Assembly: GCF_037023755.1 (NCBI RefSeq)
Contig: NZ_CP146100.1
Span: forward strand, 186,001 to 250,000
Direction: 5' to 3'
Length of the DNA: 64,000 nucleotides
DNA from: Saccharopolyspora sp. SCSIO 74807
GTDB taxonomy: Bacteria; Actinomycetota; Actinomycetes; Mycobacteriales; Pseudonocardiaceae
Positions 24,097-52,840 of the stretch are shown here, one piece after another. Each line of letters starts with the position of its first letter. Position 1 is the stretch's first letter. A program made the translations under genes and the position numbers. The notes under the pieces are model-generated. The model had not been told where the DNA came from. It saw only the letters and a program-made list of their open reading frames with translations, and ran no database searches.

Positions 24097-24177
24097 CCGC
24101 CGCCATGCCTGCCAGCCGGGGCCCGACGACCGGGTGCCCGACGACTCCGGGGCGGACGACCCCGAGGAAGGTTGACC

Positions 24178-24228
24178 ATGCGTCCTGCGACGTCCGTGTC
24201 CCCGCGAAACGGGGAGCGTGCCGCGTGA
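24178..24228 (+). CDS. Putative 16-codon leader peptide coupled to cobN
   Basis: An ATG at 24178 with an excellent Shine-Dalgarno (AGGAAGG at 24165-24171, six-base spacing) opens a 16-codon frame, MRPATSVSPRNGERAA. Its TGA (24226-24228) overlaps the cobN GTG (24225-24227) in a GTGA junction. The cobN Shine-Dalgarno lies within the frame and inside a hairpin, so translating the leader would open that hairpin. It has no known homologue and no codon run that suggests classical attenuation. Confidence 0.55.
   Translation: MRPATSVSPRNGERAA
24199..24215 (+). promoter_or_regulatory. Hairpin masking the cobN Shine-Dalgarno
   Basis: TCCCCG (24199-24204) pairs perfectly with CGGGGA (24210-24215) around a CGAAA loop. 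GGGGAG at 24211-24216, the only cobN Shine-Dalgarno candidate, lies eight bases before GTG 24225 and is almost wholly in the stem. It could be the translational expression platform of the riboswitch. Confidence 0.6.
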
Positions 24229-27200
24229 TCCTGCTGCTGTCCACATCGGACACCGATCTGCTGAGCGCGCGCGCCGCGAACGCCGACTCCGGTGTCGCGC
24301 AGTTCCGGCTCGGCAACCCCGCCCGGCTCGGCGTGGACGACCTGCCGCCGCTGCTGGAAGGCGTCGACCTCGTCGTGGTCCGCCTGCTCGGCGGCCGCCG
24401 CGCCTGGGAGGAGGGCCTGGACGCGCTGCTGGCCGGGCCGCGGCCGGTGGTGGTGCTCGGCGGCGAGCAGGCCCCGGACGCGGAGCTGATGGAGTGCTCC
24501 ACGGTGCCCGGCGGGGTTTGCGCGCAGGCGCACAGCTACCTCGCCCAGGGCGGGCCGCAGAACCTGACGCAGCTGTTCCACTTCCTGTCGGACACGATCC
24601 TGCTCACCGGACACGGCTTCGAGCCGCCGGTGGAGACTCCCAAGTGGGGCGTGCTGGAACGCGAGCCGCGCCGCACCGAGGGCCCGACGGTGGCGGTGCT
24701 GTACTACCGCGCGCACCACATGGCCGGGAACACCGCGTTCGCGCACGCGCTCTCGGAGTCCATTGAGGACGCCGGTGGGCAGGCGCTGCCGGTGTTCTGC
24801 GCCTCGCTGCGCGCTCCGGAGCCGGGACTGCTAGACACGCTCGAGCAGGCGGACGCGCTGATCGTCACGGTTCTCGCGGCGGGCGGCACGAAACCCGCGA
24901 CCGCGCAGGCCGGTGGCGACGACGAGGCGTGGGACGTGGGTGCGCTGGCCGAGCTGGACATCCCGATCCTGCAAGGGCTCACGCTCACCTCCAGCCGCGC
25001 GGCGTGGGAGGAGAACGACGAGGGACTGTCCCCACTGGACATGGCCACGCAGGTGGCGGTGCCGGAGTTCGACGGGCGGCTGATCACGGTGCCGTTCTCG
25101 TTCAAGGAGAACGACTCCGAGGGCTTGCCGGTCTACGTCGCCGATCCGGAGCGCACCGCGCGCGTCGCCGGGACCGCGGTACGGCACGCGCAGCTCAAGC
25201 ACGTGCAGCCGCAGGACAAGCGGCTGGTGCTGATGCTATCGGCGTATCCGACCAAGCACTCCCGCATCGGCAACGCGGTCGGGCTGGACACCCCGGCCAG
25301 CGCGGTGAAGATGCTGGCCACGCTGCGCGACGCGGGCTACGACATCGGCCCGGCCGACGGCCCGGACGCGCTGCCCGGCGTCGCCGCGCAGGACGGTGAC
25401 GCGCTGGTGCACGCGCTGATCGCGGCGGGTGGGCAGGACCCGGACTGGTTGTCCGAGGAGCAGCTTTCCGGGAATCCGGTGCGGATTCCGGCCAAGCGCT
25501 ACGCCGAGTGGTACGCGACGCTGCCCGCGGACCTGCGCGAGAGCATCGAGCAGCACTGGGGTCCGCCGCCTGGCGAGCAGTTCGTGGACCGCTCGCACGA
25601 CCCGGACGGCGAGATCGTGCTCGCCGCGCTGCGCGCGGGCAACGTGGTGATCATGGTGCAGCCGCCGCGCGGTTTCGGCGAGAACCCGATCGCGATCTAC
25701 CACGATCCGGACCTGCCGCCGAGCCACCACTACCTGGCCGCCTACCGCTGGCTCAACCACGAGTTCGGCGCGCACGCGATGGTGCACCTGGGCAAGCACG
25801 GCAACCTGGAGTGGCTGCCGGGCAAAACCGCGGGCATGTCGGCGTCCTGCGCGCCGGACGCGGCGCTGGGCGACCTGCCGCTGATCTACCCGTTCCTGGT
25901 CAACGACCCCGGTGAGGGCACGCAGGCCAAGCGGCGGGTGCACGCCACGCTGGTGGACCACCTGGTGCCGCCGATGGCGCGCGCGGAGAGCTACGGCGAC
26001 ATCGCCAAGCTGGAGCAACTGCTCGACGAGCACGCGCAGATCTCCGCGATGGACCCGGCGAAGCTGCCCGCGATCCGCAGCCAGATCTGGACGCTGATGC
26101 AGGCCGCGAAGCTCGACCACGACCTCGGGCTGGAAGAACGCCCGCACGAAGCCGAATTCGACGACATGCTGCTGCACGTCGACGGCTGGCTCTGCGAGAT
26201 CAAGGACGCGCAGATCCGCGACGGCCTGCACATCCTCGGCGGCGCGCCGACCGGTGAGCCGCGGGTGAACCTGGTGCTGGCGATGCTGCGGGCGCGGCAG
26301 ATGTGGGGCGGGCAGTCCGCCGCGCTGCCCGGCCTGCGCGAGGCGCTGGGCATGTTGGAGGACGGCAGCGTCGCCCGCGGCACCGTGGACGACGTGGAAA
26401 CCAGCGCGCACGCCCTGGTTTCCGGTATGGAGGAGCACGACTGGGAGCTCTCGGCGGTGCCGGAGGTCTGCCGTTCGGTGCTCGGCGAAGCACCGGACGA
26501 CGTGGTGCGAGTGCTGGAGTTCGCGGTTTCCGAACTCGTTCCGCGGCTGGCGTCCACAACGGACGAGATGACCGCGGCGCTGCACGCGCTGGAAGGCGGC
26601 TACGTCCCGGCGGGCCCGAGCGGTTCGCCGCTGCGCGGCCTGATCAACGTGCTGCCGACCGGCCGGAACTTCTACTCGGTGGACCCGAAGGCGGTGCCGA
26701 GCCGGCTTTCCTGGGAGACCGGCCACGCCATCGCGGACTCGCTGATCGAGCGCTACCTGGACGAGACCGGGGAATACCCGCGTTCGGTGGGGCTGTCGGT
26801 GTGGGGCACCTCGGCGATGCGCACTTCCGGTGACGACATCGCGGAAGTGCTCGCGCTGATGGGCGTGCGGCCCACCTGGGACGAGGCTTCGCGGCGGGTC
26901 AACGGCCTGGAAGTGATCCCGCTGGAGGAGCTGGGGCGCCCGCGCGTGGACGTGACGGTGCGCATCAGCGGCTTCTTCCGCGACGCTTTCCCGCACGTGG
27001 TCACGCTGATCGACGACGCGGTGCGCAAGGTCGCCGCGCTCGACGAGCCGCACGAGCAGAACTTCGTGCGCGCGCACGCGCAATCCGACGTGGCCGAGCA
27101 CGGTGACGAACGTCGTGCCACCACAAGGATTTTCGGCTCCAAGCCGGGCGCGTACGGGGCCGGTCTGCTGCCGCTGATGGACAGCAAGAACTGGCGCGAC

Positions 27201-27854
27201 GACACCGACCTCGCCGAGGTTTACGCGGTGTGGGGCGGTTTCGCCTACGGCCGCGGGCTGGAAGGCACCGAGGCGCGCGGCGACATGGAGTCGGCGTACA
27301 AGCGGATTTCGGTGGCAGCGAAGAACGTCGACACCCGCGAGCACGACATCGCCGACTCGGACGACTACTTCCAGTACCACGGCGGCATGATCGCCACGGT
27401 GCGCGCGCTTTCCGGCAAGGCACCGGCGGCCTACATCGGCGACAGCAGCAGGCCTGACTCGATCCGCACCCGCTCGCTCACCGAGGAGACCTCGCGCGTT
27501 TTCCGGGCGCGCGTGGTGAATCCGCGCTGGCTGGACGCGATGCGCAAGCACGGCTACAAGGGCGCGTTCGAGCTCGCGGCCACAGTGGACTACCTGTTCG
27601 GCTACGACGCCACGACCGGCGTGGTCGGCGACTGGATGTACGAGAAGCTGGCCGAGACCTACGTGCTCGACGAGGAGAACCAGAAGTTCCTCACCGAGTC
27701 CAACCCGTGGGCGCTGCACGGCATCACCGAACGCCTGCTGGAAGCGGCGAACCGGAACATGTGGGAATCCCCCGACCCGGACACCATCGCCGCCCTGCAC
27801 GAGGTCTACCTGCAGGCCGAAGGTGACCTGGAGGACGGCCCGCAACAATCCTGA
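24225..27854 (+). CDS. cobN: Cobaltochelatase subunit CobN
   Basis: A 1209-residue CobN, the large substrate-binding subunit of the ATP-dependent cobaltochelatase that inserts Co2+ into hydrogenobyrinate a,c-diamide. Length is typical (about 1200). Landmarks are the N-terminal VILLLSTSDTDLLSARAA, then LYYRAHHMAGNTAF near residue 160, AMVHLGKHGNLEWLPGK near 520 and SPDPDTIAALHEVYLQAEGD at the C-terminus. CobN normally needs an AAA+ partner pair; no cobS/cobT is seen, and the ChlI/ChlD-type protein at 50492 is the probable partner. It starts at GTG 24225, placed by the Shine-Dalgarno and by overlap with the leader frame. Under B12 riboswitch control. Confidence 0.96.
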   Translation: MILLLSTSDTDLLSARAANADSGVAQFRLGNPARLGVDDLPPLLEGVDLVVVRLLGGRRAWEEGLDALLAGPRPVVVLGGEQAPDAELMECSTVPGGVCAQAHSYLAQGGPQNLTQLFHFLSDTILLTGHGFEPPVETPKWGVLEREPRRTEGPTVAVLYYRAHHMAGNTAFAHALSESIEDAGGQALPVFCASLRAPEPGLLDTLEQADALIVTVLAAGGTKPATAQAGGDDEAWDVGALAELDIPILQGLTLTSSRAAWEENDEGLSPLDMATQVAVPEFDGRLITVPFSFKENDSEGLPVYVADPERTARVAGTAVRHAQLKHVQPQDKRLVLMLSAYPTKHSRIGNAVGLDTPASAVKMLATLRDAGYDIGPADGPDALPGVAAQDGDALVHALIAAGGQDPDWLSEEQLSGNPVRIPAKRYAEWYATLPADLRESIEQHWGPPPGEQFVDRSHDPDGEIVLAALRAGNVVIMVQPPRGFGENPIAIYHDPDLPPSHHYLAAYRWLNHEFGAHAMVHLGKHGNLEWLPGKTAGMSASCAPDAALGDLPLIYPFLVNDPGEGTQAKRRVHATLVDHLVPPMARAESYGDIAKLEQLLDEHAQISAMDPAKLPAIRSQIWTLMQAAKLDHDLGLEERPHEAEFDDMLLHVDGWLCEIKDAQIRDGLHILGGAPTGEPRVNLVLAMLRARQMWGGQSAALPGLREALGMLEDGSVARGTVDDVETSAHALVSGMEEHDWELSAVPEVCRSVLGEAPDDVVRVLEFAVSELVPRLASTTDEMTAALHALEGGYVPAGPSGSPLRGLINVLPTGRNFYSVDPKAVPSRLSWETGHAIADSLIERYLDETGEYPRSVGLSVWGTSAMRTSGDDIAEVLALMGVRPTWDEASRRVNGLEVIPLEELGRPRVDVTVRISGFFRDAFPHVVTLIDDAVRKVAALDEPHEQNFVRAHAQSDVAEHGDERRATTRIFGSKPGAYGAGLLPLMDSKNWRDDTDLAEVYAVWGGFAYGRGLEGTEARGDMESAYKRISVAAKNVDTREHDIADSDDYFQYHGGMIATVRALSGKAPAAYIGDSSRPDSIRTRSLTEETSRVFRARVVNPRWLDAMRKHGYKGAFELAATVDYLFGYDATTGVVGDWMYEKLAETYVLDEENQKFLTESNPWALHGITERLLEAANRNMWESPDPDTIAALHEVYLQAEGDLEDGPQQS

Positions 27855-52685: not shown

Positions 52686-52840
52686 AGGCAGTGTCCTGAC
52701 TCCCGGATCCGCGCGGAACTTCCCCGGCCTTCCCAGGCGTCCCGGTGGCTCGCGAAGGGGACCCGCTCCCCGGTCACAGTGGCGCCGACCGTGCCGGACT
52801 CGCACCGGCTTCCTGACCTGCCCGGCTGGGACCAGCGAGC
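52686..52840 (-). ncRNA. Cobalamin (B12) riboswitch upstream of the chelatase/cobOB array
   Basis: Minus-strand aptamer: GGAAGCCGGTGCGAGTCCGG near 52813-52794, GCGCCACTGTGACCGGGGAG at about 52784-52765 and GGATCCGGGAGTCAGGACAC at about 52710-52691. The start codon of the chelatase is about 55 nt further, after GAGGAAGGA. This supports shared feedback control of both cobalt-insertion units. No second leader frame like that of cobN was noticed here. Confidence 0.95.

Follow-up and report, generated by a model that had tools for sequence, protein, structure and literature searches.

A cobalamin riboswitch is followed by a short leader frame overlapping the cobN start codon in Saccharopolyspora and its relatives

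Anatomy of the cobN locus

The window analysed here is a stretch of 64,000 nucleotides from Saccharopolyspora sp. SCSIO 74807 (contig NZ_CP146100.1, positions 186,001 to 250,000). It carries a B12 riboswitch, a short leader frame and cobN, the coordinates of which are collected in Table 1. The aptamer scored above the RF00174 gathering cut-off of 31.5 bits, and CobN above the TIGR02257 cut-off of 822 bits. The protein is 100% identical to CobN of Saccharopolyspora sp. HNM0986. The hairpin of the expression platform, which we take to be P13-like, is abutted on its 3' side by the leader Shine-Dalgarno (SD) sequence, and a 6-nt spacer (TTGACC) separates this AGGAAGG from the leader ATG (24178-24180). 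The leader stop TGA (24226-24228) overlaps the cobN GTG (24225-24227). Further upstream within the leader, 24199-24204 can pair with 24210-24215 to form a stem over most of the cobN SD. A sequence-only reading of this DNA had described the riboswitch, the SD-led ATG frame of 16 codons and the GTGA at cobN, and all of these hold at their positions.

Table 1. Features of the riboswitch, leader and cobN in the window
Feature	Coordinates	Strand	Basis
Cobalamin riboswitch aptamer, RF00174	23882..24114	+	Rfam: 60.1 bits, E 2.1e-12, model 1-189 of 189
Expression-platform switch hairpin, CTCCGGGGCGGACGACCCCGA	24145..24165	+	Like hairpin 5-23 nt 5' of cobN in 95 distinct relatives
Leader SD, AGGAAGG	24165..24171	+	Sequence; SDs of relatives
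Leader frame (uORF), MRPATSVSPRNGERAA, ATG, 16 codons, stop TGA	24178..24228	+	Sequence; leaders of relatives
Stem, 6 bp with 5-nt loop, over most of the cobN SD	24199..24215	+	In the window sequence; not conserved
cobN SD, GGGGAG, 8 nt 5' of GTG	24211..24216	+	Sequence
GTGA stop-start overlap	24225..24228	+	Sequence; TGA dictated by cobN codon 2 (ATC)
cobN, cobaltochelatase subunit	24225..27854	+	TIGR02257, 1147 bits; PF02514, 1345.6 bits

The leader among cobN upstream regions of relatives

A census of cobN upstream regions started from 224 loci, of which 209 encoded the CobN N-terminal motif (15 were dropped), and yielded 163 distinct upstream sequences. These comprised 95 direct sequences, 29 with a leader ending NTGA, one with a leader in another frame, two in-frame fusions and 36 that were left unclassed because no switch was found or because the hairpin or loop was missed by our search patterns (some of them, such as L017, L020, L054 and L200, look direct). 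In the direct sequences, 5-23 nt separate the end of the hairpin from cobN, and the SD serves cobN itself. The run GAGGAAGG that follows the hairpin is the cobN-nearest SD in several direct relatives, e.g., L093, L099 and L104. In the clade of Saccharopolyspora and Actinopolyspora, the hairpin and SD sit before an ATG leader of 16-145 codons. The leader starts at hairpin +13 to +17, inside the range of gene starts in the direct relatives. The proposal of the sequence-only reading that the riboswitch acts on leader initiation, and not on cobN, is thus borne out in part: by comparison, the switch-adjacent SD appears to serve the leader.

Twenty-seven leaders were gathered by the criterion of an ATG located between hairpin +10 and +19, and L006, L158 and L082 were added separately. 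An NTGA end at cobN was found in 26 of the 27, and in 29 of the 30 distinct leader-class sequences (L050 not counted); the sole sequence off the NTGA frame was L068, from Actinopolyspora biskrensis. The leaders of L006 (145 codons) and L158 (126 codons) both still end on the cobN ATG. Loss of the riboswitch was considered for these two and rejected, as the switch sits further upstream of the long leaders. Aligned with each other, they show gaps of 39 and 18 nt, and the longer one (L006) has an extra repeat-like stretch. The 53-codon leader of L010 (genome G014) is partly built of near-identical 33-nt tandem repeats, a unit length with which each repeat preserves the frame. In the two fusions, L009 and L177 (genus g2), the leader forms an in-frame N-terminal extension of CobN that starts from a GTG at hairpin +13. 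L050, from another family and among the 36 unclassed sequences, has a 44-codon leader that ends 127 nt 5' of the presumed cobN start. Codon 2 was CGN (Arg) in 25 of the 27 gathered leaders.

Frame keeping and possible signals of coupling

Distances from the leader ATG to cobN of 47, 50, 59, 62, 77, 80, 86, 119, 158, 377 and 434 nt all preserve the reading frame by which the leader ends at cobN, and 79 nt (L068) is the only distinct length that breaks it. The 27 leaders have 10 distinct lengths, nine of them in the NTGA frame; with L006 (434 nt) and L158 (377 nt) the count becomes 11 of 12, for which the binomial P against 1/3 is 4.7e-5. This value is an approximation, because the lineages are related and the 158-nt length (L010) has a separate origin; the statistic counts distinct lengths as independent, and one of the 12 (L010) comes from outside the clade. 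When the fusions L009 and L177 were scored as failures, the count was 11 of 14 (P = 6.9e-4). A noncoding control interval, from the B12 box to the hairpin in the same sequences, had nine distinct lengths, divided 4/3/2 among the three residues, and showed no frame preference. The lengths support the view that the reading frame ending on the cobN start is preserved in the leader. Alignment of related cobN leaders had been proposed in the sequence-only reading as a check; among the relatives compared here the start is kept, and so is the frame except in L068.

Two features that attract attention in a single sequence carry little weight. GTGA or ATGA at the cobN start is also present in 87 of the 95 direct relatives (88 when TTGA is included), and the fourth base, following the called cobN start, is A in 145 of the 163 distinct sequences, cobN mostly beginning with MI (NTG ATC). 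As codon 2 of cobN is ATC, NTGA is nearly always present, and GTGA alone is poor evidence for coupling. The lack of internal stops was rejected as evidence as well, since the other two frames are likewise stop-free in 24 of 27 leaders. With open frames cheap at this G+C and NTGA forced, the two main facts of the sequence-only reading do not, by themselves, show coupling.

No clear peptide-level selection on the leader was found by codon position, in the leader alignments or in the comparison of L006 with L158. Variable columns at the three codon positions numbered 10/10/8 and 3/5/1. Differences between the L006 and L158 leaders were 13/12/22, against 3/4/46 in the first 1500 nt of cobN. In the absence of a clear coding constraint, it is the lengths that carry the case for frame keeping. 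Because the peptide is so little constrained, the act of translation is probably what matters, and the peptide itself is probably without function.

The genomic background was sampled in 464 kb, made up of 20 stretches of 20 kb and the window. Of 333 genes, called crudely and with a bias to SD-bearing gene starts, 189 had 110 nt or more of free leader. An SD-preceded ATG or GTG leader frame ending NTGA occurred at two of these 189 genes, one of which is cobN.

The cobN SD and its masking stem

An SD-like run precedes cobN in all 27 gathered leader-class sequences (GAGGAG in 18, GGGGAG in four, CGGGAG in four and GAGG in one), so that independent initiation at cobN is possible. Accessibility of this SD was ranked against 60 shuffles of each leader for the 27 sequences (L006, L158 and L082 not included). 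The rank was 3/60 in the window species and 1/60 in its sister strain, so that the predicted masking of the SD by the stem exceeds that of most shuffles in these two. In the other 25 sequences the ranks were scattered from 6 to 56. Over all 27, accessibility consistently lower than that of shuffled leaders was not found, and the stem was therefore rejected as a conserved element. The SD-masking hairpin of the sequence-only reading thus exists in the window species and the sister strain, and its expected conservation in relatives fails beyond these two. In L008, L010, L068 and L227 the cobN SD is also predicted to be masked, through other pairings (accessibility 0.06-0.10).

Origins of the cobN leader

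The CobN tree was built from 104 rows (the members of the 163 whose CobN had 560 residues or more) by a quick method with SH-aLRT support only; its labels are wrong for L006 and L158 (marked as having no riboswitch, both in fact leaders) and for L082 (marked direct, in fact a leader). The leader state changes three times on this tree. Most leader rows group together in a 27-row clade (support 97), whose members are Saccharopolyspora, Actinopolyspora and a Halosaccharopolyspora lacisalsi genome. L010 stands outside this clade and groups with the fused L009 (support 99). In Sciscionella sediminilitoris (L082) the leader has 27 codons and begins where its sister S. marina (L085), a direct sequence, has its gene start. 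The cobN leader therefore arose more than once, with two lineages (L010 and L082) besides the main clade.

Aptamer loop and hairpin loop

Among the 128 sequences in which both parts were found, the aptamer loop was GTCCCGCC in 98 and GTCGCGCC in 30; 10 further sequences without an aptamer-loop match lie outside the 128. The hairpin carried GGAC in 92 of the 98 sequences with GTCCCGCC and in one of the 30 with GTCGCGCC. GGCGCG was present in the hairpin of all 30 sequences with GTCGCGCC, but also in 38 of the 98 with GTCCCGCC. Loop variants of aptamer and hairpin thus shift together, which is consistent with a covarying loop-loop pairing. The hairpin loop and the aptamer loop GTCCCGCC could form a kissing loop.

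A probable translational relay and its rivals

The arrangement is real and conserved, and is a variant of a known relay. We consider it probable, on comparative grounds, that the locus is a translational relay from riboswitch to gene through the leader. At low B12 the hairpin beside the SD at 24165 would be loose, and ribosomes would initiate at the leader ATG. On reaching the TGA at 24226 they would reinitiate at the overlapping cobN GTG, aided by the cobN SD. Once B12 is bound, the hairpin would be clamped by the aptamer loop and the leader SD blocked, and cobN would receive no ribosomes. The B12 response and its sign, like translation of the leader and reinitiation, are here inferred. Besides the comparison of cobN leaders, the relay is favoured by leaders of like design at other B12-switch genes (see below), by the rarity of such leaders in the sampled genome and by the reporter results on M. 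tuberculosis ppe2. Points against this relay are the SD-like run before cobN, the want of a clear coding constraint, the off-frame leader of L068, the L050 leader that stops short of cobN, the leaders without overlap at a DUF364-like gene (see below) and the action on transcription ascribed to the nrdABS B12 switch of S. coelicolor (PMC4991794).

The leader might instead be translated under control of the switch so as to shield the transcript from Rho or decay, with cobN initiating independently at its own SD. The SD-like run kept before cobN throughout the 27 sequences favours this, as do two reports: in M. tuberculosis an Mbox riboswitch governs a uORF by a translational platform together with Rho termination (PMC12810186), and the B12 switch of S. 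coelicolor nrdABS is said to regulate transcription (PMC4991794). Such shielding does not predict leaders of 16 to 145 codons that stop exactly at the cobN start, and the study of ppe2 in M. tuberculosis judges Rho not responsible for the loss of expression (PMC11260477). We regard it as unlikely. Still less probable is an incidental frame, with cobN initiating independently and the switch working by another route. That open frames are common at this G+C, that cobN codon 2 imposes the TGA and that the leader peptide is not conserved are all as expected of an incidental frame; it leaves unexplained the constant position of start codon and SD relative to the hairpin, the confinement of nearly all distinct lengths to one frame, the origin on more than one occasion and the rarity of such leaders elsewhere in the genome.

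Two further explanations make a product of the leader itself. Frameshifting at the overlap could give a leader-CobN fusion as the main product, an idea that gains from the genetic fusion of leader and CobN in two relatives and from the minor fusion product reported for ppe2 (PMC11260477). The clade keeps a stop, a new start and an SD before the new start, and we think it very improbable that fusion is the main outcome. A regulatory arrest or attenuation peptide, suggested by the position of a leader peptide before a biosynthetic gene, seems more improbable again: sequence and length (16 to 145 codons) vary freely, no codon runs were seen by eye and constraint by codon position is not clear.

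Relation to known systems

The relay itself is precedented. The B12 switch of M. tuberculosis ppe2 is reported to work through a uORF (uPPE2) with an AUGA overlap, mostly by termination-reinitiation (Kipkorir 2024, PMC11260477). In reporters described there, expression fell severely when the uORF was deprived of its SD or its start codon, and the tight AUGA overlap was required. A review of 2025 calls the ppe2 switch a uORF-dependent translational relay (PMC12713380). The sequence-only reading, which knew of no such arrangement for B12 riboswitches, was therefore mistaken on this point. The ppe2 and cobN loci share the B12 riboswitch, an SD-led out-of-frame uORF, an NUGA overlap and a gene that would be fed through the uORF. 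They differ in that ppe2 has no SD of its own, whereas cobN has GGGGAG, and in that the ppe2 switch is assigned to an atypical variant of Class IIb and the gene here is one of B12 synthesis. Dependence on the uORF was demonstrated for ppe2 and is suggested by comparison for cobN; unlike ppe2, the arrangement at cobN is common to a clade and has more than one origin.

The M. tuberculosis pe20 Mbox with the uORF rv1805A (PMC12810186) is similar in that a riboswitch directly governs a small upstream frame with a translational platform; it differs in being a Mg2+ switch with a highly conserved uORF and in involving Rho-dependent termination. The direct actinobacterial cobN switches have a like aptamer loop, hairpin and SD, but there the SD serves cobN and no leader is present. 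B12 riboswitches upstream of Streptomyces cob genes are named in PMC8079986 and PMC4991794, in passages that mention no leader frame there. In searches of the open-licence PubMed Central literature we found no description of a leader before cobN, of its conservation in a clade, of its repeated origin or of a frame-without-peptide signature. Our results suggest that the uORF relay known from a single mycobacterial B12 switch recurs as a means of wiring riboswitches to genes, that frame keeping can reveal it even where the peptide is not conserved, and that the element truly under regulation may be overlooked when the DNA downstream of these switches is annotated. We are evenly divided on a broader proposition: that in actinobacteria the switch-controlled start has repeatedly been captured to open a disposable leader, and that the NTGA at which this leader ends passes control to a gene start displaced by up to 434 nt. 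The switch would thereby be freed from its gene, with length and sequence of the leader free and its frame not.

Leaders at other B12-switch genes

In a crude survey of 89 B12 switches, SD-led NTGA leaders were found at five. Thirty-five of the 89 had a gene start placed by protein motif, and SD-led upstream starts at these were distributed 7, 6 and 7 over the three frames; no general excess of relay frames was found at B12 switches, and this even spread is a further point against the relay. The survey missed the leaders of a same-genus transporter gene, since the start of that gene has no SD.

The genome has seven RF00174 loci. At one of them (L032/L262, G000:C1:4109640-4110808) a B12 riboswitch is followed by a 27-codon leader that ends 39 nt 5' of a DUF364-like gene, which scored 22.3 bits against a Pfam cut-off of 23. 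Among the 17 rows examined of 24 listed, six bear a switch; four of these have a non-overlapping leader (19-25 codons in relatives), and the hairpin pattern missed the other two.

At another (L031, G000:C1:5676836-5677006, minus strand), a B12 riboswitch is followed by an 18-codon GTG leader with a GTGA overlap at the transporter gene, which encodes an SBP_bac_5 ABC transporter substrate-binding protein. A B12 box was present in five of 19 examined rows (30 listed), one per same-genus genome, that of the window included. All five switch-bearing copies have a leader with GTGA, of 21 codons in the other four.

The second B12 riboswitch of the window (52689-52815, minus strand) directly precedes a gene for a Mg/Co-chelatase-like protein, whose partial sequence scored 545.8 bits with TIGR02442 against a cut-off of 779. 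In the family this gene gave 63 rows, some from repeated genomes: 52 were direct, five had an NTGA leader (L331, L339, L342, L408 and L419) and six gave no call. Two of the last six, L344 and L369, have an NTGA leader in the frame count of motif-placed starts.
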